Below, one piece after another: positions 2,013 through 50,282 of a DNA stretch of 50,417 bases (positions are counted from its first letter, which is position 1; each line of letters opens with the position of its first letter). Position numbers and translations under genes: made by a program. This DNA comes from an uncultured Oscillospiraceae bacterium. Lineage in GTDB: Bacteria > Bacillota > Clostridia > Oscillospirales > Oscillospiraceae. The notes beneath the pieces are model-generated. The model was not told where the DNA came from. It did no database searches and saw nothing but the letters and a program-made list of their open reading frames with translations. The stretch lies in the NCBI GenBank assembly GCA_947630645.1, contig CANRIF010000006.1:1-50417 (forward strand), written 5' to 3'.

Positions 2013-4349
2013 TTACAGCCGGGCCGTCAGCGGCTCGGTCACCGCGCCGTACAGCGCCGGCGGCAGGTCCATCCGGCCCAGGGCCGCCAGGGCGTGGGCC
2101 AGGCCGGGGCTGGTCCGCACCGCGTCGTATATCTGCCGCTTCAGCTCGTTGGATATCTGGGCGAAGGTGAGCAGGTCGAAGACCTCCTCCACCGGGTCCG
2201 GGTCCACCATATCGGCGGAGAACGCCGCGGAAAAGCCATCCCGGCCCGGCACCAGTTCAAAGCACAGCGTCCGGCTCTCTTCATCATAGCGCCAGCCGTC
2301 CACCGACACGGCCTCCGGCTCCGCCACGCCCGTCACCAGCACCCGTACCCGCCGCTCCGCCGGGATGCAGGAGCCGTCCCCCTCCACCGTCGCCGTGAGG
2401 CGCGCCGTCTTGCCCCAGGTAAAGGTGAAATGGGTGACAGTTGGCTCCGCGCCATACACGCCGCTGTCCTCGTACATATCGAAGTGTCCGTCCGCGCCGG
2501 GCCATACCCGCAACTCGATCACTTCCGGGTTCTCCGCGCCGTTGCGCTCCCCGTCCCCGTCCAGCGGCACGATCCCGCCGGCGGGCACCAGCACCGGGAT
2601 GCTCTCCAGCCTACGGTACAGCTTCAGCCGCCGGCCGCCCGTGTACCGCCGACCGGTGAAGAAGTCGTAGTATGTTCCCTCCGGCAGCCAGGCGTCGAAG
2701 CAGCCTATCTGCGTGTCCCGGTCCGCCGGGGCGGTGATGGGGCAGGCGATCATCCCGGTCCCGAACCAGTATTCGTTGGGAACGGTGTATGCTTCCGGAC
2801 AGTCGTTGACGTAGTACATGGGCCGCATCAGCGGCAGCCCCTCCCGGTGGGTGAGATAGTTCATCGTATAGAGGTACGGGATCAGCTTCCGGCGCAGGCG
2901 CAAAAACGCCGTCATGGCCCGCTCCGCCTCCAGCCCGTACTTCCACGGCTCCTTCCCCATGAACGGGTTGTCCGTGCTGTGCAGGCGCATGATGGGCGAG
3001 AACACACCCATCTGCACCCACCGGGCCGCCAGTTCGTCGTCCCGCCTGCCCCCCTGGTGCCCGCCGATGTCGTGGCTCCACCAGGTATAGCCGATGTTGG
3101 CCGCGTTGGCGGTGAAATAGGGCTGGAAGGCCAGGGACGCCCAGGTGGAGAAGCTGTCGCCGGAAAACCCGATGGGGTAGCGGTGGCTGCCCGGCCCGGC
3201 GTACCGGGAGAAGGTCAGGGGCCAGCGCCCATCCCGGCCGCTGTCCAGATAGTGCAGGTGGTTGAGCATCCACAGCGGGTCGATGCCCGGCACCGCCGAG
3301 CGCGTCCCCTGCTGCCAGTCCACCCACCAGAAGTCCACGCCCTCCGCCTCCAGGGGATGATGCAGATACTTGAAATAGGCGTCCATGTAGTCCCGGTCCG
3401 CGGCCTCAAAGGGGATGCGTCCGCCCTGGGCCGGGTCCTGTCCCAGAGCCTGGGCCACATCGGGATAGGCCCGCTCATGGGCCCCCACTCCCTCGGAGGG
3501 GTGGACGTTGAGGGTGACCTTCAGCCCTCGCTCGTGGAGCTGGCGCAAAAACGCCACATGGTCTGGGAACAGCTCCTCGTTCCAGGTGTACCCCGTCCAG
3601 CCGCTGCCGCAGTGGGGCGGCAGCTTCGTCAGGTGCCAGTCCATGTCCACCACCGCCACGCTCAAGGGGATGCCGTGGGCGGCGAACTGATCCATCAGGC
3701 GCATATAGCTCTGCTGGGTGTACTTGTGGAACCGGCTCCACCAGTTGCCCAGCACGAACCGGGGCAGCAGCGGCACCTGGCCGGTGAGACGGTAGAAGTC
3801 CCGCAGGCAGTCCATGTACTTGTGGCCGTAGCCGAAGAAGTACAGGTCCTGCAAGCCCTCCGGCCGTGGTTCGGCCCACATATCCTCCCGGACAAGGGCC
3901 GTGCGGCTGTCGTCCAGCACCGTGTACCCGTCCAGGCTCATGAGCCCGCTCTCCAATGGGATGGCTCCGTCCGCTCCGTCCAGGGTCCGGGCCGTGCCGC
4001 CCAGGTCGTGGGTCCTGTCCCCATACCGCCAGCAGTAGGCAAAGCCGTGGGGCGAGTCCGATGTCTCCACCCGCAGGCCCTCCGGCGAGAAGGGTCCGCC
4101 GTCATAGTAAAGGCACAGCCGGCCGGTGTCCACCACGACCCCCTGTCCCCGCCGCTCCGTCCTAAACGGCGGCACGGGGGCGAAGTCCCGGCACAGCACG
4201 GTCTGGGTGGCGCTGTCGGTGAAGCGGCCAGCCGGGTCGTACTCCAGCCGCAGAAGCCGCTCCGTCAGCACCGTGACGCGCCACGTGTCCCCCTGCACCA
4301 CGGCCTCCGGCCGCGCTAGGGGGCGAAGGTCCAATTTTCCGTTTCCCAT
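2013..4349 (-). CDS. Glycoside hydrolase family 31 (alpha-glucosidase-like)
   Basis: 778 residues without a signal peptide, so intracellular. Domain order is typical of GH31: N-terminal beta-sandwich (about 1-180), catalytic barrel (about 190-540), C-terminal beta-sandwiches (about 540-710). Catalytic residues are visible: nucleophile Asp344 in WWVDWQQG and acid/base Asp398 in GFSGDSFSTW. The HDIGGHQGG motif follows. Family knowledge: GH31 enzymes release glucose or xylose from alpha-linked oligosaccharides. The WQQG variant after the nucleophile marks an alpha-glucosidase-like subgroup, and I would not fix the linkage. The last 65 residues form a helical tail outside the usual fold. It is followed by the esterase 15 bases on and preceded by ald at 39 bases, apparently one transcription unit. 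Confidence 0.9.
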   Translation of the reverse strand: MGNGKLDLRPLARPEAVVQGDTWRVTVLTERLLRLEYDPAGRFTDSATQTVLCRDFAPVPPFRTERRGQGVVVDTGRLCLYYDGGPFSPEGLRVETSDSPHGFAYCWRYGDRTHDLGGTARTLDGADGAIPLESGLMSLDGYTVLDDSRTALVREDMWAEPRPEGLQDLYFFGYGHKYMDCLRDFYRLTGQVPLLPRFVLGNWWSRFHKYTQQSYMRLMDQFAAHGIPLSVAVVDMDWHLTKLPPHCGSGWTGYTWNEELFPDHVAFLRQLHERGLKVTLNVHPSEGVGAHERAYPDVAQALGQDPAQGGRIPFEAADRDYMDAYFKYLHHPLEAEGVDFWWVDWQQGTRSAVPGIDPLWMLNHLHYLDSGRDGRWPLTFSRYAGPGSHRYPIGFSGDSFSTWASLAFQPYFTANAANIGYTWWSHDIGGHQGGRRDDELAARWVQMGVFSPIMRLHSTDNPFMGKEPWKYGLEAERAMTAFLRLRRKLIPYLYTMNYLTHREGLPLMRPMYYVNDCPEAYTVPNEYWFGTGMIACPITAPADRDTQIGCFDAWLPEGTYYDFFTGRRYTGGRRLKLYRRLESIPVLVPAGGIVPLDGDGERNGAENPEVIELRVWPGADGHFDMYEDSGVYGAEPTVTHFTFTWGKTARLTATVEGDGSCIPAERRVRVLVTGVAEPEAVSVDGWRYDEESRTLCFELVPGRDGFSAAFSADMVDPDPVEEVFDLLTFAQISNELKRQIYDAVRTSPGLAHALAALGRMDLPPALYGAVTEPLTARL

Positions 4350-37233: not shown

Positions 37234-39558
37234 ATGGACGCGAAAGCGGTCCTCGGCCAGATGACGCCGAAGGAAAAGACGCGGCTGCTCTCCGGCAGCG
37301 GCTTTTGGCACACCCTGGGCTGCGAGCGGCTGGGCGTGCCCAGCCTGCTTGTCACGGACGGGCCCCACGGCCTTCGCAAGCAGCTACGCCGAGGGGACCG
37401 GCTGGGCATCGGCCCCTCCCTGCCCGCCACCTGCTTCCCCACCTCCGGGGCCACCGCCTGCTCCTTCGACCCGGCGCTGCTGGAGCGGATCGGCCGGGCG
37501 CTGGGCGAGGAGTGCCGGAAGGAGGGCGTGGCCCTGCTGCTCGGCCCCGGGGTCAACATCCAGCGCAACCCCCTGTGCGGCCGGGACTTTGAGTACTTCT
37601 CCGAGGACCCGCTGCTGGCCGGGACCCTGGCGGCGGCCTTCATCCGGGGGGTGCAGAGCGCGGGCGTGGGCGCCTGCCTAAAGCACTTTGCCGCCAACAG
37701 CCAGGAGCTGTACCGCAACTGGGCCGACTCCGTCGTGGACCAGCGGGCCCTGCGGGAGATATACCTGCGCCCCTTTGAGATCGCGGTCAAGACCGCCCGG
37801 CCCTGGGCGATGATGACGGCCTACAACCGCCTCAACGGCACGTTCTGCTCCCAGAACCCCGTCCTGATGCGGGACCTGGCCCGGGGAGAGTGGGGCTTCG
37901 ACGGCCTGTTCGTCACCGACTGGGGCGCCATGAGCGACCCGGTGGAGTCCTTCCGGGCGGGGCTGGATCTGGAGATGCCCGGCGTCTGCCGGGGCACGGA
38001 CCGGGAGCTGCGCTACGCCGTGGAGACCGGCGCCCTGGCCCAGGAGGACATCGACCGGGCGGCCCGGAACGTGCTGGCCCTGGCCGAAAAGCACCAGGCC
38101 GGCGACGCCGTCCCCTATACCTGCGACATGGCCGCACACGCCGCCCTGGCCCGCCAGGCGGCCCGCGAGAGCGCGGTGCTGCTGAAAAACGACGGCCTGC
38201 TGCCGCTGCGCCCCGGGGCGCGTCTCGCGGTGATCGGCGGCCTGGCCAGGGAGCCACGGTATCAGGGCGCCGGCTCCAGCCGCATCGAGCCGGCGGGGCT
38301 GGACAGCTTCTGTCAGGCCCTGGATGAGGCGGGCGCCGCCTACGGCTGGGCCGAGGGCTTCCGGGGCGACGAGCCCGACGGCGGCCTGATCGCCCAGGCG
38401 GTGGCCACGGCCCGGGACAAGGACGCGGCGGTGGTGTTCGCTGGGCTGCCGGAGGACGGGGAGAGCGAGGGCTTCGACCGGGCGCACATGGAGCTGCCCG
38501 AGGCCCAGAACGCCCTGATCCGGGCCTTGGCGGAGGCGGGCGTCCCCACCGCCGTGGTGCTGCAATGCGGCAGCCCCGTGGCGCTGCCCTGGGCGGAGGC
38601 GGTGAACGCCGTCCTGCTGGTCCACCTGGCCGGGCAGGAGGGCGGCCACGCCGCGTGGGAGCTGCTGTCCGGGGCCTGCAGCCCCGAGGGCCGGCTGGCC
38701 CAGACCTGGCCCGCCAGGCCGGAGGACGTGCCCAGCGCCGCCACCTTCTCCACCGGGGAGGAGCGGGTGCAGTACCGGGAGAGCATCTTCGTGGGCTACC
38801 GCTACTACTGCTCCGCCCCCGCCGCGCCGGCCTACCCCTTCGGCCACGGCCTGGCCTACACCACGTTCGATTACAGCGATCTGGCCATTGACGGCCGGAC
38901 CGTGCGGTGCACGGTGAAGAACACCGGCGCCGTCCCCGGGGCAGAGACGGTGCAGCTGTACGTCTCCCTGCCGGGCTCCAAGGTGTTCCGGGCCCAGCGG
39001 GAGCTGAAGGGCTTTCAAAAGCTGCGCCTGGCCCCGGGCCAGGAGGCCCAGGCGGTCTTCACCCTGCCGGACGAGGCCCTGGCCTGGTACGACCCCCGCG
39101 GCCGCGGCTGGAGCGTGGAGCCGGGGCAGTACCGCGTCCTCATCGGCGCCTCCAGCCAGGACATCCGCCTGGAGGGGACGCTGGCCGTGACCGAGGGCAC
39201 CGTGCCGGAGCCGCTGGATTACCCCGTGGGCACGGCGGACCAGGCCCAATTCGAGGCGCTGCTGGGCCGTCCCGTGCCGCCGGACACTCCCGAGCGTCCC
39301 TACACCAAGGACACCCTCATGGTCCACGCCCGCTCCTCCCTGGCGGGGAAGCTGTTCCTCACCATCGGCGCCCGGGTCGCCCGGGGCCGGACGGGCAGCG
39401 CGGAGCGGGACGCCCGGATCGGCCGGCAGACCGTGGAGGGCATCCCCCTGCGGGGCATCGGCATGGCCGGCGGGGACCGGCGGCTGATCCACGCGGCGGT
39501 GGAGCTTTTCAACGGCCACCCCCTCCGGGCCGTGGCCCGGCTGTTCCGCAGGCCGTGA
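37234..39558 (+). CDS. Glycoside hydrolase family 3 (beta-glucosidase-like)
   Basis: 774 residues, no signal peptide, cytosolic. GH3 barrel with LVTDGPHGLR, GPGVNIQRNPLCGRDFEYFSE, CLKHFAANSQE, MMTAYNRLNGTFCSQN and nucleophile D229 in LFVTDWGAM. Then the second domain (RESAVLLKNDGLLPL) and an Fn3-like domain (about 540-650, CTVKNTGAVPGAETVQLYV). A tail of roughly 120 residues follows (about 655-774, FEALLGRPVPP and a basic end), which I recall in other clostridial GH3 enzymes. It splits beta-linked gluco-oligosaccharides in the cell. Substrate detail is inferred from family only. AAAGGAGGCGG precedes the ATG. A strong terminator follows at 39576-39614. Confidence 0.92.
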   Translation: MDAKAVLGQMTPKEKTRLLSGSGFWHTLGCERLGVPSLLVTDGPHGLRKQLRRGDRLGIGPSLPATCFPTSGATACSFDPALLERIGRALGEECRKEGVALLLGPGVNIQRNPLCGRDFEYFSEDPLLAGTLAAAFIRGVQSAGVGACLKHFAANSQELYRNWADSVVDQRALREIYLRPFEIAVKTARPWAMMTAYNRLNGTFCSQNPVLMRDLARGEWGFDGLFVTDWGAMSDPVESFRAGLDLEMPGVCRGTDRELRYAVETGALAQEDIDRAARNVLALAEKHQAGDAVPYTCDMAAHAALARQAARESAVLLKNDGLLPLRPGARLAVIGGLAREPRYQGAGSSRIEPAGLDSFCQALDEAGAAYGWAEGFRGDEPDGGLIAQAVATARDKDAAVVFAGLPEDGESEGFDRAHMELPEAQNALIRALAEAGVPTAVVLQCGSPVALPWAEAVNAVLLVHLAGQEGGHAAWELLSGACSPEGRLAQTWPARPEDVPSAATFSTGEERVQYRESIFVGYRYYCSAPAAPAYPFGHGLAYTTFDYSDLAIDGRTVRCTVKNTGAVPGAETVQLYVSLPGSKVFRAQRELKGFQKLRLAPGQEAQAVFTLPDEALAWYDPRGRGWSVEPGQYRVLIGASSQDIRLEGTLAVTEGTVPEPLDYPVGTADQAQFEALLGRPVPPDTPERPYTKDTLMVHARSSLAGKLFLTIGARVARGRTGSAERDARIGRQTVEGIPLRGIGMAGGDRRLIHAAVELFNGHPLRAVARLFRRP

Positions 39559-41819: not shown

Positions 41820-43940
41820 TTATGTCAACTGTTCCCCTGTGCCGTCCTGCCACAGCAGTTCCACCGGCCCGTCCCCGGTCAGCGCCCGGCTGCGCCCGTC
41901 CGGCTGGCTGCACCCCACCCAGAGGGCGAACCGCGTCCCCCGGCGCCGGACCCCGGCCTCGTCCACCACGGTGAAGGCCCGGGCGGGCACGTCCAGCGTC
42001 ACCGTGACCGTCCCCCCGGCGGGGACCTCCGCCCGCCGGAACGCGGCCAGGGCCGGGTTCGGCGGCGCGAAGGGGCTGTCCAGGCACCGGATATACGCCT
42101 GCACCACGTCCTGGGTATCCGCCCGTCCGGCGTTCTCCACCGCCGCGGACAGCCGCAGCCCCTCCTCCGCGCTCCCAGCCAGCACCCGCGCCGCCGTCAC
42201 CCGCACACGGCCGTAGGTCAGCCCGAAGCCGAAGGGGTACTGGGCGGGCCGCTCCATGTACCGGTACGTCCGGCCTTTCATGGCGTAGTCCTCGAAGTCG
42301 GGCAGCTGATCCGCGCTCTCATAAAACGTCACCGGCAGCTTCCCGGAGGGGGACGCCGCCCCGAACAGCAGCTCCGCCGCGGCCGCGCCGCCCTGGGCGC
42401 CGGGGTACCACAGCGCCAGGATGGCGCCGAAATGCTCCGCCGCGTAAGCCAGGTCCACGGCGCTCCCTGTCATCAGGCACAGCACCGTGGGCTTGCCGGT
42501 CCCGGCCACGGCCTCCATCAGCGCCCGCTGGGGGGCGGGCAGCCGCAGGTCGGGCCGGTCGCCGGATGCGTAGCTGTTGTTGGCGTCGCCGGCCTCGCCC
42601 TCCAGCGTCTCGTCCAGCCCCAGGCACAGGATCACCGCGTCGCTGGCCCGGGCGGCGGCCACCGCCTCCGCCAGCCGGTCCCCCGCCTGGGCCACCGGCT
42701 CGGTCCTGTCCCGGAACAGGTGGCACCCCGCCGCCGTCAGCACCCGCACGCCGCTGCCGGCCAGGTAGTCCTGCACGCCCTCCTGCACCGTCACATAGCG
42801 GCCGGCGGTGCCGTGGTAATTCCCCGCCAGGGCGGCGCGGCTGTCGGCGTTGGGGCCGATGACGGCCACGGTCCGCAGCGCGTTTTTGTCCAGGGGCAGC
42901 AGCCCGTCGTTTTTCAGCAGCACGGCGCTCTCCCGGGCGGCCCGGCGGGCCAGGGCCAGATGCTCCGGGCACTCGATGGCCGTATAGGGGATGGCGTCGT
43001 ACTCGCTGCCGTCGAAGAGGCCCAGCAGGAACCGGGTGGTGAACAGCCGCACGGCTGCCTCGGTGACGGCCGCCTCGCTCACCAGCCCCCGCTCCACCGC
43101 CTTAGCCAGGTGGCGGTAGGTGTCCCCGCAATTGAGGTCGCACCCGTTGTTCACGGCCAGGGCCGCGGCCTCCACGGCGTCCCGCGCTACGCCGTGGCGC
43201 ACATGGAAGTCCTCGATGGCGCCGCAGTCGGATACGAAGTGGCCCTTAAAACCCCACTCCTCCCGCAGCCGCTTTTGCAGCCCGGGGCTGGCGCAGCACG
43301 GCTCCCCGTTCAGGCGGTTGTAGGCGCCCATCACCGCCTCCACCCCCGCCTCCCGGACCAGGGCCTCGAAGGCGGGCAGATAGGTCTCCTCCAAATCCTT
43401 GTCGGACACGGCCGCGTCGAAGCCGTGGCGCAGGGCCTCCGGCCCGGAGTGGGCGGCCAGGTGCTTGGCGCAGGCGGCGGCCTTCATCACCGGCCCGTCC
43501 CCCTGCATCCCCCGGACGAAGGCCACGCCCATCCGGGCGGTGAGATAGGGGTCCTCCCCGTATGTCTCCTGGCCCCGGCCCCACCGGGGGTCCCGGAAAA
43601 TGTTCACGTTGGGCGCCCAGAAGGTCAGCCCCTTGTAGGCGTCCCGGTCCCCCTGGGCGGAGCAGGCGTTGTACTTGGCCCGGCCCTCGGTGGCGATCAC
43701 ACCGCCCACCTGCCGCAGCAGCGCCTCGTCGAAGGTGGCGGCCAGGCCGATGGCCTGGGGGAATACGGTGGCCTGGCCGCCCCGGGCCGCCCCGTGCAGC
43801 GCCTCGTTCCACCAGGTATAGGCCGACACGCCCAGCCGCTCGATGGCCGGCGCGTCGTACCGCAGCTGGCTCACCTTTTCCTCCAGGGTCATCTGCGCCA
43901 CCAGCGCCCGCGCCCGTTTTTCCGCCTGATCCCGCGTCAT
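41820..43940 (-). CDS. Glycoside hydrolase family 3 (beta-xylosidase-like)
   Basis: 706 residues, no signal peptide. N-terminal barrel with VSAYTWWNEALHG, FWAPNVNIFRDPRWGRGQET, AKHLAAHSGPE, VMGAYNRLNGEPCC and nucleophile D238 in GHFVSDCGAI. Then the alpha/beta sandwich (RESAVLLKNDGLLPLDK, VIGPNADSR) and a C-terminal Fn3-like part (VENAGRADTQDVVQAY). The WWNEALHG and RDPRWGRGQET forms and the SDCGAI nucleophile site are those of the beta-xylosidase/alpha-arabinofuranosidase branch, unlike the GH3 at 37234, so the two differ in role. Promoter at 43964-43992. The product would split xylo-oligosaccharides inside the cell (family inference). Confidence 0.92.
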   Translation of the reverse strand: MTRDQAEKRARALVAQMTLEEKVSQLRYDAPAIERLGVSAYTWWNEALHGAARGGQATVFPQAIGLAATFDEALLRQVGGVIATEGRAKYNACSAQGDRDAYKGLTFWAPNVNIFRDPRWGRGQETYGEDPYLTARMGVAFVRGMQGDGPVMKAAACAKHLAAHSGPEALRHGFDAAVSDKDLEETYLPAFEALVREAGVEAVMGAYNRLNGEPCCASPGLQKRLREEWGFKGHFVSDCGAIEDFHVRHGVARDAVEAAALAVNNGCDLNCGDTYRHLAKAVERGLVSEAAVTEAAVRLFTTRFLLGLFDGSEYDAIPYTAIECPEHLALARRAARESAVLLKNDGLLPLDKNALRTVAVIGPNADSRAALAGNYHGTAGRYVTVQEGVQDYLAGSGVRVLTAAGCHLFRDRTEPVAQAGDRLAEAVAAARASDAVILCLGLDETLEGEAGDANNSYASGDRPDLRLPAPQRALMEAVAGTGKPTVLCLMTGSAVDLAYAAEHFGAILALWYPGAQGGAAAAELLFGAASPSGKLPVTFYESADQLPDFEDYAMKGRTYRYMERPAQYPFGFGLTYGRVRVTAARVLAGSAEEGLRLSAAVENAGRADTQDVVQAYIRCLDSPFAPPNPALAAFRRAEVPAGGTVTVTLDVPARAFTVVDEAGVRRRGTRFALWVGCSQPDGRSRALTGDGPVELLWQDGTGEQLT

Positions 43941-44975: not shown

Positions 44976-45011
44976 GGCGCGGCCCAAAACAGCGGGCCGC
45001 GCCTGGTTTTT
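44976..45011 (+). terminator. Terminator after pyridoxamine kinase
   Basis: 10-bp stem GGCGCGGCCC / GGGCCGCGCC with loop AAAACAGC, then TGGTTTTT (T-run 45007-45011). Confidence 0.9.
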
Positions 45012-45055: not shown

Positions 45056-45084
45056 TTGCAATCTGGCATGAAATGCATTACAAT
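45056..45084 (+). promoter_or_regulatory. Promoter of the dockerin and anchored surface-protein genes
   Basis: TTGCAA (45056-45061), 17 bases, TACAAT (45079-45084) at the edge of an AT-rich island. The leader is about 100 bases (45090-45189), GC-rich and able to fold, but I recognise no known riboswitch in it. AAAGGAG leads into the ATG. Confidence 0.75.
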
Positions 45085-45189
45085 GTACGCACCAGTAGAC
45101 AGCGGCGCGGCGTGCCGGGCGTCCGGCCCTCCCGCGGGGCTGTCGAAAGTGACCCATCATTTCATTCCCCTTATGAAAGGAGAAAACAC

Positions 45190-47580
45190 ATGAAAAAGAT
45201 CACCTGCCTTGTCCTGGCGCTGCTCATGCTCCTGGCCATGTTCGCCACGGCCGGCATGACGGCGGACCCGGCTTCCGTTTCGGAGGAGCCCGCTCCCGTT
45301 TCCGAGGAGCCGGCCGGCCAGCCGGAAGTTCCCGCCTCCGACCCGGTGCAGCCCCAGATCGCGGCGCCGGAGGCCACCGAGACCGAGGCCGGCGCCCCCG
45401 CTGCGTCCGACCCCGTCGACGAGTCTGCGCCCGTAGAGCCGGCCCCCGAGGCCGACGCCCAGACCGAAGAGGTCGAAGAGACTGAAGAGACTGAGAAGGT
45501 CGAGGATGTCGAGGATGTGGAACAGGCCGAAGAGCCCGAACCCGCTGCCGACAACAGCATCTCGCCCATCTCGGGACCCGCCGAGGAGGAAGGGCCCCGC
45601 ACCGTCGCTGTGTATGCCAACGGCGGCTGTTTCCCGGCGCCCCGCTCCGCCTATGATCCCCTGACGGTCACGCTGACCGAGGAAGGCAAACTCCCCAAGG
45701 CCGACACCGAAGCCGAGAAGGATTGGTACATCCCCCAGCGCGCGGGTTACCGCTTCGTGGGCTGGTACAAGGATAACCCCGGCCCGACTACGCCCAGCGA
45801 GGATGCCCTTGATTTGAGCAAGCCCCTTGACAAAGAAGTGACGGCGCTTTACGCCGGCTGGGTTCGTGTCCTCGTCTTGGATGCCGCGCCCGGCAGCTTT
45901 AACGACAAGAACACCGATAACTACTCCCGCACCGTGGATGTCCCCAATGGCGTCATGCCCAATGTGGAGGCGTATAAGCCCGTCTTCAACACCGACGCCG
46001 AAGAGCAGAGCGCGGACTTCATCGGCTGGTACACCGCGCCCACCTCCGTGACCCACACCGAGCATGAGGGCTACTGGACCTGGGATGTGAAGACCAACGG
46101 CCAGGAGGTCAAGCCCGGCGACCCGCTCGCCGAGGGCGTCACCACCCTTTATGCTGGCTATAAGGTCAACGAGGCGAAAGCCCCCGAGACAGCCCGGCAG
46201 GCCATCACCTTCTATCTCGACTGGAACGGCATCAACGGTATGTGGGGCAAGTGCCTGACCCTCTCCCGCAGCTACGATGCGGCCAAGGGCGGCTACACGC
46301 TCACCCCCGCGGACCTGCTGGTCTGGAGCCTGAACTGGGACAGTAATGACGAGGTGGATGTCAGCAGCATGGATGCCCTGAATACGTATTGGGCGGGACG
46401 CACCTTCCCGGCCGAGAATGGCTACACGTTCCGCGGCTGGGCCACCACCGAGAACGCCACGGACCCTGACGTGGACGACGAAACCGTGGTCAAGGACGGC
46501 GACAGCATCTACGCCGTCTGGACCAAGGACGGCGACAGCAGCCAGAAGTTCGTCGCTGACGGCGGCCGGGATAAGACCGTCGGCCCCCTGGAGTTCATCC
46601 AGTTCCCGAATCTGAAAAACAGCGCCCACGGCAAGGCGGGCGCCACCGCCACGGTCACCATGCACACTTCCCCGGTGGATGCCGAACTGTCGAACGTGGT
46701 CTGGAACGTCACCTACTCTGTACCCAGGGAGAACCCCTTCGCGCCTCCCCTGTCCTACACCGTGCAGGTCAAGGACGGCGAGACCTTTGACGGCCAGAAC
46801 CCGGGAGAGGGCAAAGGAAAGATAGGCATCGAAGCCAAAGCCAGCGGCCGCACCCTGACTTTCACCGATGTGGACGGCATGGACCACGTCGTGACCGTCA
46901 CCGTCTCCTCCGACACCGACTACACGGACCCCGTGACCCAGGAGAAGATCACCAGCGTCCAGTCCAACACCTACGCCGAGGTCGTCTTCACCCACAGCTG
47001 GCAGGAGAGCAAAGAAGAACTGGCTGCCACTTGCAGCACCCGCGGCGCGAAGTATTACGAGTGCAGCGACTGTGCCGCGGAAAAGACCGTGGAGACGCCC
47101 ATGCTGACCCACGTCTGGCAATACGTGGTGGAGCCGGCCCCCCAGTGCACCACGCCCGGCTACAAGCAGGACACGTGCAAGTACTGCGGCATCACCTTCG
47201 CCCAGTATCAGCAGGAGATGAATGCCAAAGGCTTGAAGCTCAACCCGCCCCACAAGACCACCATCATCCCCGCCACGGGACATGAGTATAAGACAGTCAA
47301 TGCCAATGCAGGGCGGGCCGAGAACGGCCTCCGGCTGATATCCGAGCAATGCGTCAGGCCTGGCTGTGGAGACACGGAGATCGTTATGAATGGCGATGCC
47401 ACGGGTGACAACAACGTGAATGTTCTCGATGTCGATTTGCTGTTCCAGATCGTCAACAAGCAGGTCGTTTCTACCCAGTCGGTCGAGGCGCTTGACCTAA
47501 ATGGCGATGGTAAAGTGAATGTTCTTGATGTGGATAAGATTTTCATGTACGTCAACAAACAGATAGCTTCTTTTGACTGA
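45190..47580 (+). CDS. Secreted surface protein with InlB-like repeats and a C-terminal dockerin
   Basis: 796 residues. Signal peptide about 1-25 (MKKITC, AGMTA). Residues 26-136 are a Pro/Glu-rich linker. Then three Listeria-Bacteroides (InlB B-type) repeats at about 137-224 (GYRFVGWY, LYAGW), 226-324 (FIGWYTAP, LYAGY) and 338-445 (GYTFRGWATT, YAVW). A beta-rich part follows, then a cysteine-bearing stretch (615-730). The end, 732-796, is a type I-like dockerin: F-hand 1 D736-A-T-G-D740 to D747, F-hand 2 D769-L-N-G-D773 to D780, both followed by VNVLDVD. No enzyme domain and no cell-wall anchor are seen. A dockerin normally docks a protein onto a cohesin. The anchored protein 27 bases downstream starts with a cohesin-like domain. 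GC content falls abruptly at the dockerin (from about 47400). Confidence 0.88.
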   Translation: MKKITCLVLALLMLLAMFATAGMTADPASVSEEPAPVSEEPAGQPEVPASDPVQPQIAAPEATETEAGAPAASDPVDESAPVEPAPEADAQTEEVEETEETEKVEDVEDVEQAEEPEPAADNSISPISGPAEEEGPRTVAVYANGGCFPAPRSAYDPLTVTLTEEGKLPKADTEAEKDWYIPQRAGYRFVGWYKDNPGPTTPSEDALDLSKPLDKEVTALYAGWVRVLVLDAAPGSFNDKNTDNYSRTVDVPNGVMPNVEAYKPVFNTDAEEQSADFIGWYTAPTSVTHTEHEGYWTWDVKTNGQEVKPGDPLAEGVTTLYAGYKVNEAKAPETARQAITFYLDWNGINGMWGKCLTLSRSYDAAKGGYTLTPADLLVWSLNWDSNDEVDVSSMDALNTYWAGRTFPAENGYTFRGWATTENATDPDVDDETVVKDGDSIYAVWTKDGDSSQKFVADGGRDKTVGPLEFIQFPNLKNSAHGKAGATATVTMHTSPVDAELSNVVWNVTYSVPRENPFAPPLSYTVQVKDGETFDGQNPGEGKGKIGIEAKASGRTLTFTDVDGMDHVVTVTVSSDTDYTDPVTQEKITSVQSNTYAEVVFTHSWQESKEELAATCSTRGAKYYECSDCAAEKTVETPMLTHVWQYVVEPAPQCTTPGYKQDTCKYCGITFAQYQQEMNAKGLKLNPPHKTTIIPATGHEYKTVNANAGRAENGLRLISEQCVRPGCGDTEIVMNGDATGDNNVNVLDVDLLFQIVNKQVVSTQSVEALDLNGDGKVNVLDVDKIFMYVNKQIASFD

Positions 47581-47607
47581 CCTACCCGCAAAGGAGGAAC
47601 GATCGAT

Positions 47608-50238
47608 ATGAAAAAGTTTTTAATTGCACTTTTGGCGTTGGTGCTGATCATATCAGTCTTTACCATCGCCGTCGGTGCTGATGGAGGCGTACAGATCGTA
47701 GTCACAGCAGACAAGCCTACGGTCTACCCTGGCCAAACAATTACTTATACCTTGTCAGTAAAAAATTCCGGAGTGGCTATTGTTAATCTCTCGTTTGATT
47801 TCTCCTTACCTGCCGGAATCGAATTTACAGCCACAGAATCCAGTGATGTCAGCGGCTTTGCATATCATAATATTAATTTGCACCCGGCGCCGGGCACAGG
47901 TAATCCAACTGTCACATTGTCTTCTGGTTCCAAATCTGGAGATTTCACCATAGGAACTATCACAGGAACTGTTACCAACACTGTCGAAGTGAAGACATAT
48001 TCATTCACGGTTTCTAACATCGTAACGACACAGGGTGGGGGAGAAACTAGCGACACATCTGGTGCTTCTGTGACGGTATCTCATGGCGACAAAGACAGTT
48101 CTTACCACAATTATCCGTTATCTCCCACCAAAACGGTGCCCCCCACCTGCCAGGAGTATGGCAAAGAAATCTACGAGTGCCAGACCAAAGGCTGCAACGC
48201 AATTGATGAAAAGTCCATTGCTAAAAAAGAACACCTTTGGAAGGATACTCCCACTTGGGACTGGGGAAGCGAGAACCCGCCCTTTGACAACGTGACCGCG
48301 ACCCTTACCTGTTCCGGGAACGGCGGCAAATCTCACACGGTGGAAGCAACTGCCAAGGGAGAGAAGGTCAAGAGTACTGCCACTTGCACAGAGCCGGGCG
48401 ATACGACTTACGCCGCCACGGTCACCTTTGGCACTGGCGATGAAGGCAATGGTATGTCCTACACCGATACCAAGACTGTCGAGGGCGTCGCCCTTGGCCA
48501 CCAGTGGCCGGACCAGGCCGATATCAAGGTCAGCTGGACCGGCGAGGCCGGCAAGCAGACCATAGAGGGGCCTGTGACCGTAATGTGCGGGAACGGCGAC
48601 AAGTGTGATTCTCCCAACGGCATCGAGTTGGAATTCAAGTACGTTTACACCGATGACACCGCCACCTGCACTAAGCCCGGCGAGATCACCGCCACCGCCA
48701 CCGCTACTGCCACCAACGTCCCCGGCATGACCTATACCTTCAAAAACACAGCAAAGACCCCCGCCCTGGGCCACAAGTGGGCGAAAGACGCTCCTACGGT
48801 GATCTGGACTGGTGATGCGAACAAGGAAGCGCGTACCATCCAGGGAGAGGTCAAGGCGACTTGCGATAATGGTGATAAGTGTGACGGCAGCCGGAAGCTG
48901 ACATTCACCTATTCCCACGATGGAACGCCCGCCACCTGCACCGAGGACGGCGATATCACATATTCGGCCGTTGGCACCACCGAAGACGGTCATACCTATA
49001 ACTTCACCGATGCGAAGCAGACGCTTACCAAGCTGGGCCATGATTTTCAGGGGAACAAGCTTCTTGTCACCTGGCCCGAGGAATACGACGGCAAGAACCC
49101 CCCCGTTGTCACCACTGTTGCCATTGAGTGCAACAATGGCTGCTCCGAAGAGCCCATCCCGGGTAAAGTCGTTAGCGTCAACAAGGTCGAAACCGACGGC
49201 GATTGGGCGGAGCCCACTTACCAAAAAGGCGGCGTACACACCTATACCGTTACCGCTACGTTCCCTGACGGCAAGGGCAATCAGACCGCTAAAATGACTT
49301 CCGAGAAAAAGCCGTACACGCTTTCCCCGCTGGAGGCCACAGTCGAAGCGTCCGAACTGCCCAGCCAGGCCGACCAGTCCGCAAAGGCAAAGGATGCCCT
49401 GGAAGCCGATGTGAAGGCTATGCTGGATGCCGCGCTGACAGAGAACAGCTTCAGCGGCATGGACGAGGACCTGAAAGAGGCTCTCCAGAACGCCCAGGTC
49501 AGCACGACCGCAGGCATGAACGTCACCACCGCGTTGGTCGTGACCGATAGCACCGCCAATAAGGGTTCCGTCACCAACGTGGATGCCGAGAACGTTAAGG
49601 GCTATTATGACATTCACATCGACGTAAAGGTGGAATTGAATGGCAAGACTACGGAAGGCCATATCACGGAAGTCAGCACCCCCATTACCTTCACGATCAA
49701 GCTGCCCAGCGGCGGCCCCATCTGGTATGTGATGACGAACCATGGCGGCCCTTGGGCCAAGATCGAAGGCTCCAAGGTGGAAAATGGCCACATCGTGTTC
49801 AGTTCCAAGCAGTTCTCCGATTTCGCCATCATCTCCAGCAACGACCTGAAGGACGCCAAGATCGAGGCCATCCCCGCCCAGACCTATACTGGCAAGGCCA
49901 TCACGCCCAAGGTGAAAGTCACCATCAACGGCGGCCAGGAACTGACGGAGAACGAGGACTACACCGTCACCTACTCCAACAACACCGATAAGGGTACCGC
50001 CACAGTGACCATCGAGGCTGTGGAAGGTTCCGATTACATCGGCTCCAACACCGCCACCTTCCAGATCAAGGCGGCCTCCTCCGGCGGCTCCGGCAGCGGC
50101 AGCGGCAATGGCAGCGGCTCCGGCTCCCCCGAGACGGGCGACGAGACGCCTCTGGCCCTGTATGCGGCCCTGCTGACGGCCTCCCTCGCGGCTCTGGCCG
50201 CCACCCTCCTGGTCCTGCATAAGCAGCGCCAGAAGTAA
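47608..50238 (+). CDS. Sortase-anchored surface protein with an N-terminal cohesin-like domain
   Basis: 876 residues. Signal peptide 1-24. Residues about 28-160 are an all-beta domain (PGQTITYTLSVKNSGVAIVN, then DFSLPAGIEF, TYSFTVSNIV, SGASVTVSHG). Its strand order, length and closing strand look like a cohesin, but the opening also resembles DUF11. Then four repeats of about 90 residues at 209-297, 298-388, 389-477 and 478-569, each opening H(L/Q/K/D)(W/F). The second and third carry CxNGDKCD, and the first three carry ATCT(E/K). Residues 575-745 form a mixed domain and 749-822 an Ig-like YTGKAITP repeat. A Gly/Ser linker leads to SPETG (840-844), a hydrophobic helix and HKQRQK: a class B/SPxTG-type sortase signal. 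AAAGGAGG precedes the ATG, 27 bases from the dockerin gene. The first 640 bases are low in GC, unlike the rest. Confidence 0.85.
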   Translation: MKKFLIALLALVLIISVFTIAVGADGGVQIVVTADKPTVYPGQTITYTLSVKNSGVAIVNLSFDFSLPAGIEFTATESSDVSGFAYHNINLHPAPGTGNPTVTLSSGSKSGDFTIGTITGTVTNTVEVKTYSFTVSNIVTTQGGGETSDTSGASVTVSHGDKDSSYHNYPLSPTKTVPPTCQEYGKEIYECQTKGCNAIDEKSIAKKEHLWKDTPTWDWGSENPPFDNVTATLTCSGNGGKSHTVEATAKGEKVKSTATCTEPGDTTYAATVTFGTGDEGNGMSYTDTKTVEGVALGHQWPDQADIKVSWTGEAGKQTIEGPVTVMCGNGDKCDSPNGIELEFKYVYTDDTATCTKPGEITATATATATNVPGMTYTFKNTAKTPALGHKWAKDAPTVIWTGDANKEARTIQGEVKATCDNGDKCDGSRKLTFTYSHDGTPATCTEDGDITYSAVGTTEDGHTYNFTDAKQTLTKLGHDFQGNKLLVTWPEEYDGKNPPVVTTVAIECNNGCSEEPIPGKVVSVNKVETDGDWAEPTYQKGGVHTYTVTATFPDGKGNQTAKMTSEKKPYTLSPLEATVEASELPSQADQSAKAKDALEADVKAMLDAALTENSFSGMDEDLKEALQNAQVSTTAGMNVTTALVVTDSTANKGSVTNVDAENVKGYYDIHIDVKVELNGKTTEGHITEVSTPITFTIKLPSGGPIWYVMTNHGGPWAKIEGSKVENGHIVFSSKQFSDFAIISSNDLKDAKIEAIPAQTYTGKAITPKVKVTINGGQELTENEDYTVTYSNNTDKGTATVTIEAVEGSDYIGSNTATFQIKAASSGGSGSGSGNGSGSGSPETGDETPLALYAALLTASLAALAATLLVLHKQRQK

Positions 50239-50253
50239 TACCCCCAATTCCCC

Positions 50254-50282
50254 GAAAGGACACGGCCCCGCCGTGTCCTTTC
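50254..50282 (+). terminator. Terminator after the anchored surface-protein gene
   Basis: Perfect 12-bp stem GAAAGGACACGG / CCGTGTCCTTTC with loop CCCCG, then TTTATT. Confidence 0.88.

Follow-up and report, generated by a model that had tools for sequence, protein, structure and literature searches.

A two-gene locus in an uncultured Oscillospiraceae bacterium raises the question of why a secreted protein that ends in a dockerin is encoded immediately upstream of a probably wall-anchored protein with a cohesin-like domain. The locus lies within a 50,417-nucleotide stretch of contig CANRIF010000006.1 (the window; its genome is denoted G000), and features of the window are on the + strand except where stated. 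Gene 1 (45190-47580) encodes 796 amino acids and gene 2 (47608-50238) encodes 876, with a gap of 27 bp between them. We consider it probable that the two genes constitute a dedicated, non-cellulosomal surface-docking module, in which a wall-fixed cohesin-fold protein displays a dockerin-bearing repeat protein.

The product of gene 1 consists of a signal peptide, List_Bact/InlB-type repeats (PF09479, 28.2 bits with a cut-off of 27; TIGR02543, 32.6 with a cut-off of 20.95), Cys-containing repeats, and a dockerin at the C-terminus. The dockerin is of type I, spans residues 735-788 (47392..47553), and matches Dockerin_1 (PF00404) with 29.7 bits in a protein scan (curated cut-off 22.9) and with 35.8 bits at the same coordinates in a genome scan. 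Its two F-hand calcium loops, DATGDNNVNVLD (47395..47430) and DLNGDGKVNVLD (47494..47529), both contain D1, D5, N9, and D12, and both carry VL at positions 10-11. Position 3 is T in the first loop and N in the second. When the PDB was searched by sequence, gene 1 matched dockerins weakly (best E 0.0045), and the matches to gene 2 were uninformative.

Gene 2 encodes a protein with a signal peptide, a beta domain at the N-terminus, Cys-containing repeats, and, at the C-terminus, an SPETG sorting motif (50125..50139) with a hydrophobic stretch and a basic tail behind it. Read by eye, the N-terminal signal together with this tail is the architecture of a sortase-anchored protein, and the srtB_target model scores 16.8, just under its cut-off of 18.15. 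Elsewhere in the same genome, a sortase-like open reading frame with a TLSTC motif (L154:299-2128, on G000:C2) matches PF04203 with 28.5 bits in a protein scan (cut-off 26.6) and 23.7 in a genome scan; from its features we take it to be class B. A long run of QRPVQQ-type repeats precedes the membrane segment of that frame. Judging from these signals, the gene 2 protein is probably fixed to the wall by sortase. Neither protein of the pair contains a catalytic family at cut-off in Pfam or NCBIfam. The initial annotation of the window is therefore upheld in its gene coordinates and 27-base gap (re-read from the sequence), its InlB-like repeats, its two F-hands with calcium residues at 1, 5, 9, and 12, its SPETG ending, and its statement that neither protein is catalytic.

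The same annotation had called the N-terminal domain of gene 2 cohesin-like and flagged that call as uncertain, with DUF11 as the other candidate. In an AlphaFold2 model (predicted local distance difference test, pLDDT, 77.6; predicted template modeling score, pTM, 0.76), this divergent domain (47680..48102) has nine strands and the jelly-roll fold of cohesins. Comparison of the model with PDB structures by Foldseek gave cohesins as the best matches. No structure match listed for the domain is labelled DUF11, which does not in itself exclude a DUF11 fold. Homologous domains occur on contig C12 of the same genome (34% identical) and at L073 (contig CANROZ010000024.1), from a rabbit-gut Oscillospiraceae metagenome-assembled genome and the same locus as G034:C24. 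A profile of the three domains (window, C12, L073/G034) matches 25 cohesins at 97.6% (E 4.5e-12, 102 columns) and 23 DUF11 domains at 96.5% (E 8e-10, 85 columns). In control comparisons with hhalign, the cohesin profile matches the DUF11 profile at 35.5%, six single cohesins match DUF11 at 0.3-13.4%, and five single DUF11 domains match cohesins at 0.3-34.3%. Because ordinary cohesins and DUF11 domains match each other so poorly, this subfamily is unusual in resembling both. By eye, Cys-containing repeats with CxxC pairs and a TCTxxG...GH pattern were also seen in both partner proteins of the window and in the C12 and L073 anchors.

Several results weigh against the assignment as a cohesin. A narrow cohesin-alignment scan of the collection gave L073 as the single relative, and the first structure alignment therefore had two rows; the fold model rests on that two-sequence alignment, the other four models are weaker (pLDDT 60-70), and an adhesin domain, CLIPPER, ranks seventh in Foldseek, above many cohesins. 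The domain scores 23.4 bits with the DUF11 model PF01345 (cut-off 24.6) and 12.4 with the cohesin model PF00963 (cut-off 24.1), and reaches 30.5 with TIGR01451 (cut-off 24) over residues 33-75. Aligned alone by hhalign, it matches DUF11 at 95.4% over 40 columns versus cohesin at 91.4% over 102. The subfamily profile matches only 6 of 35 genus genomes. A fused dockerin-cohesin chain modeled with AlphaFold2 is of low confidence (pLDDT 51.8; dockerin part 33-43), is without a usable interface, and is uninformative about docking.

Such scores are the ground for an alternative that we regard as unlikely, in which the domain is a stalk repeat of the DUF11 or immunoglobulin (Ig) type with no affinity for dockerins, and the gene 1 dockerin docks elsewhere. 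Hidden Markov models do prefer DUF11 for all three domains: besides the 23.4 bits of the window, C12 scores 25.5 over its first half (cohesin, 20.6 along the full length), and L073 scores 32.7 (cohesin, 22.8, and 25.9 in the genome scan, which is above the cut-off). TIGR01451 exceeds its cut-off as well, and DUF11 proteins are widespread in the genus, with 23 of 35 genomes encoding them. Yet cohesins come first in the fold comparison, the hhalign match to cohesins extends over 102 columns as opposed to 40, and the other two sequences favor cohesin over DUF11 (C12, 97.2% versus 86.2%; G034, 97.5% versus 90.5%). Gene context also favors cohesin over DUF11. A dockerin on the same contig accompanies three of the 112 DUF11 matches listed in the 35 genus genomes, namely the window domain, C12, and G034, while the remaining 109 have none. 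By comparison, six of the seven over-cut-off cohesins in the genus have one, and the seventh lies at a contig end. A DUF11 identity, despite its better hidden Markov model scores, disagrees with both fold and context and was rejected. The cohesin-like call thus gains from the predicted fold and the gene context and is weakened by model scores that lean toward DUF11. Since the PF00963 score is under cut-off, we use the term cohesin-fold domain rather than formal PF00963 membership; the cohesin model did not pick up the domain in the genome scan.

With a cohesin-fold domain in place, the layout of the two proteins suggests how the module would work. The gene 2 protein would be exported and then fixed by sortase to the wall at SPETG, where the region near its mature N-terminus would present a single divergent domain of cohesin fold. 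Gene 1 would be exported as a free repeat protein, and its C-terminal calcium-binding dockerin would plug into the gene 2 domain, presumably in a calcium-dependent manner. The InlB-like repeat protein would thereby be displayed non-covalently, and may have an adhesin-type role.

A search of the window's genome for further dockerins and cohesins found three dockerin matches in all: that of the window, one on C12, and one on C4. On C12 is a second pair, in which the gene for a 651-amino-acid dockerin protein runs 4 bp past the start (taken at the first ATG) of the next gene, which encodes a 484-amino-acid cohesin-like SPETG protein. The third dockerin is near the N-terminus of a 1814-amino-acid protein with fn3 and M60-peptidase matches (L006:3007-8451, on G000:C4, - strand); it scores 25.6 bits in the genome scan, is absent from the protein scan at E 1e-3, and has no cohesin match beside it in the genome scan with the cohesin model. 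A comparably long open frame (1778-1937 amino acids) with a dockerin was seen by eye in 20 of 35 genus genomes, and 19 of these 20 are without an over-cut-off cohesin, making it an orphan dockerin with no known partner. Further pairs in the genus were found in G034, at three loci of G009, and in G003.

The arrangement recurs widely in the family. Cohesin matches at E 1e-3 are present in at least 80 of 300 family genomes, and 48 of the 51 cohesin-bearing genomes searched also have a dockerin. In at least 36 of these genomes, a cohesin has a dockerin within 4 kb, encoded on the same strand but in a frame of its own, and in 24 of the 51 cohesin and dockerin also share one frame. At least 24 pairs are less than 400 bp apart, with separate genes told apart by their differing open-frame lengths. 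The pair counts are lower bounds: among the cohesin matches listed, they take in those of about 24.8 bits or more in the 51 genomes, and the dockerin table omits G035 altogether, G076 except for one row, and part of the rows of G140, G211, G280, and G070. At the level of the class, cohesins at E 1e-6 occur in at least 130 of 391 genomes. A sample was taken of 21 class genomes outside the family that have a listed cohesin coordinate and do not resemble classical cellulosome genomes; by eye, five of them (G544, G564, G579, G589, G625) encode, within ~600 bp upstream of a listed cohesin, a dockerin in a frame of its own, although G544, with 50 dockerins, may be cellulosome-like. Surface-protein genes frequently cluster, and the window pair could in principle be two unrelated neighbors. 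Such a coincidence is very improbable, for the 24 close family pairs, without exception, have both genes on one strand with the dockerin gene first, no opposite-strand pair within 4 kb was found among the matches listed for the 51 genomes, and the C12 pair is in the same genome.

Recognition within a pair may be private. Positions 10-11 of the calcium loop, which we take to be the recognition positions of type I dockerins, were compared in 28 pairs, seven of them from the genus and 21 drawn from the 24 close pairs of the family (without G076, G224, and G280). The two F-hands of one dockerin agree at these positions in 62.5% of cases, versus 7.7% between dockerins (n=28, permutation p 5e-5), with the out-of-register G187 loop 2 and G127 loop 1 retained. 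Symmetry of the two F-hands is a mark of dual-binding dockerins, and VL in both loops of gene 1 is as expected of one. The C12 dockerin has GD/GD where the window has VL/VL, so each dockerin probably prefers its own neighbor; differences of this kind in the loop residues suggest pair-private recognition. Dockerin distances also correlate with the distances of the neighboring cohesins (r 0.45, p 5e-5, 28 pairs; r 0.66, p 0.0046, seven genus pairs). The proposal of a minimal self-contained docking pair is accordingly strengthened by the fold, the C12 pair, the recurrence, the DUF11 control, and symmetric, pair-specific residues, with the correction that the pair is not the only one in its genome.

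Other findings count against an exclusive pairing with non-enzymatic cargo. The distance correlation falls to r 0.30 (p 0.0065) in 20 pairs with about one per genus, a set in which two genera are still represented twice (G284 and G187; G065 and G217); shared ancestry contributes to the correlation, which is therefore supporting evidence only. The order is reversed in G003, where two cohesin genes are upstream of two dockerin genes. The C4 dockerin is on an M60-peptidase protein, so not all cargo in this genome is non-enzymatic. The genome is 73% complete, and a further cohesin partner could therefore be missing. It is thus possible, though we think it doubtful, that the gene 2 domain is a cohesin and the gene 1 dockerin is not private, with the dockerins and cohesins of the cell interchanging or a larger scaffold outside the incomplete assembly capturing gene 1. 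That the C4 dockerin has no neighboring cohesin match and that two G009 dockerins share the code RA/RA are in keeping with this, and the available portion of PMC5301203 describes an R. flavefaciens cohesin that binds several dockerins. The differing codes of the window and C12 and the recurrent adjacency in the family argue for the dedicated pair instead, as does the lack of any multi-cohesin protein in G000 by the cohesin model, which also misses the window domain and could let divergent ones escape.

The cargo of the pairs is informative with regard to enzyme complexes. Pfam searches covered 22 of the 28 dockerin partners (that of G034 as its L073 copy) and identified no enzyme family in 16 of the 22. 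These 16 contain InlB-type or leucine-rich repeats, Ig-like, cadherin-like, or GLUG domains, a Shr-like domain, a cohesin, or the dockerin alone. The other six have enzyme families: transglutaminase-like (G003), lysozyme (G309), a VgrG3-like C-terminal domain (G267), CHAP with RCC1 repeats (G127), and phosphodiester glycosidase with phosphoesterase and CotH (G284, G065). In G127, the dockerin is absent from the Pfam scan at E 1e-4 and scores 25.4 bits in the genome scan. Among the 22, Pfam found no polysaccharide glycoside hydrolase, lyase, or esterase except the G309 lysozyme, a peptidoglycan hydrolase, and the phosphodiester glycosidases. The cohesin proteins of the pairs end in some cases in sortase-type motifs (SPETG, SPQTG, APKTG, VPATG) and in others in different tails. 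Some dockerin partners bear a cohesin of their own (L120:1271-3760, L118:153-2390, L117:2079-5090), and chains or branched assemblies are therefore possible.

It seems improbable that the locus is a remnant or an outlying piece of an enzyme complex of the cellulosome or mucinolysome type. The M60 peptidase family, to which the domain beside the third G000 dockerin belongs, includes mucin-acting peptidases. The module types are identical to those of enzyme complexes, family genomes with 19-36 dockerins exist, and the Limousia mucinolysome has an LPxTG anchor with an N-terminal cohesin, according to the available text of PMC12997984. Conversely, the three dockerins found in G000 include none on a protein matching a glycoside hydrolase, the glycoside hydrolase family 3 and 31 (GH3 and GH31) frames of the window have no dockerin match at E 1e-3, and the only glycosidase-type domains in the 22 scanned partners belong to one lysozyme and two phosphodiester glycosidases. 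Neither hallmark of a cellulosome, a multi-cohesin protein or a dockerin-bearing glycoside hydrolase, was found in G000, an absence that is unproven at 73% completeness.

From its sequence, the pair looks like a two-gene operon. Both genes have good ribosome-binding sites, AAAGGAG for gene 1 (45176..45182) and AAAGGAGG for gene 2 (47590..47597), read directly from the sequence. Upstream is an intrinsic-terminator-like hairpin (44976..45003) of 10 pairs, all G-C, with a T-rich tail, and downstream is another (50254..50282) of 13 pairs with a 3-base loop. Between the first hairpin and gene 1 is a candidate sigma-70-like promoter, TTGCAA-17-TACAAT (45056..45084; 9/12 matches). The hairpin and promoter calls are pattern matches with counts little over chance (10 terminator-like sites in the region with 6.7 expected; three promoter-like sites with 1.5 expected, for which reason the promoter is graded weak). 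The window also contains one GH31 and two GH3 enzymes, at 2016-4349 (-), 37234-39558 (+), and 41820-43940 (-).

How the pair relates to known systems can be seen by comparison. In Archaeoglobus fulgidus, the cohesin gene presumably adjoins a dockerin-bearing gene, with a cargo and an anchor that we take to differ from those of the window pair. By its record title, PDB 2xdh is a non-cellulosomal cohesin of that organism, as here, but archaeal; the available text of PMC12484212 mentions the A. fulgidus cohesin-dockerin pair in use. The initial annotation held that known cohesin-dockerin systems attach enzymes, which is too narrow in light of the published accounts below, each described from the available portions of the sources. 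In Ruminococcus flavefaciens, the non-enzymatic dockerin protein CttA is held on the single cohesin of ScaE, an LPXTG, sortase-anchored protein encoded in the same gene cluster, much like the window pair (PMC5301203, PMC2930009). CttA-ScaE differs in belonging to a large cellulosome (the sca cluster), in that ScaE binds ScaB and others, and in that the CttA dockerin has an X module and its cargo is cellulose-binding, whereas no enzyme complex was found here and the cohesin is divergent. Dockerins of R. flavefaciens also occur on leucine-rich-repeat, transglutaminase-like, and serpin proteins, for which cell-surface structuring has been suggested (PMC2930009). Its group 4 dockerins are likewise internally symmetric and are found on leucine-rich-repeat, transglutaminase-like, and unknown proteins among others (PMC2930009), but many dockerins share few cohesins (PMC5301203), and the available text makes no mention of one-to-one gene pairs dedicated to each other. 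In R. bromii, the non-catalytic dockerin protein Sas20 binds one cohesin of Sca5, a scaffoldin with a sortase signal; that amylosome differs in being starch-degrading with amylases, and Sca5 has two cohesins plus starch-binding modules (PMC9112005). The cSca5 protein of the Limousia mucinolysome is likewise from the gut and has an N-terminal cohesin on an LPxTG protein, but is the predicted anchor of multi-cohesin scaffolds and mucin-degrading enzymes (PMC12997984). A 2024 survey describes a class of single-cohesin proteins of unknown function, some thought to be cell-associated, which have one cohesin per protein in common with gene 2 (PMC11557425). The survey was restricted to genomes encoding both a multi-cohesin protein and a glycoside hydrolase that carries a dockerin, and pairs like that of the window would therefore be excluded.

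Non-enzymatic dockerin proteins on sortase-anchored cohesins are thus already published. The apparently new elements are the operon form, stand-alone and one-to-one, how often it occurs in the family, dockerin codes private to each pair, and a subfamily of cohesin fold that is called DUF11 by standard models. No paper on dedicated dockerin-cohesin gene pairs in Oscillospiraceae was found in the open-access literature searched, a scope outside which most subscription papers fall. Beyond the window, we hold it an evenly balanced proposition that the dockerin-then-cohesin pairs of gut Oscillospiraceae are a general plug-and-socket display system, with one cargo (such as a repeat adhesin, a transglutaminase, or a lysozyme-like protein) and one private anchor per operon, codes diversified against cross-reaction among the pairs of one cell, and anchors that have drifted to be DUF11-like, some of them missed by the standard cohesin model. 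That model misses the window's own anchor, and, if the reading is true, a survey requiring a multi-cohesin protein and a dockerin glycoside hydrolase (PMC11557425) would miss such pairs too. The single-cohesin proteins of unknown function would be supplied with a purpose, partners for many dockerin proteins would be suggested from gene order alone, and a natural set of possibly non-cross-reacting protein pairs would be at hand for engineering. If the pairs bind, cohesin-dockerin docking would be a general means of surface-protein display in gut commensals and not mainly one of fiber digestion.
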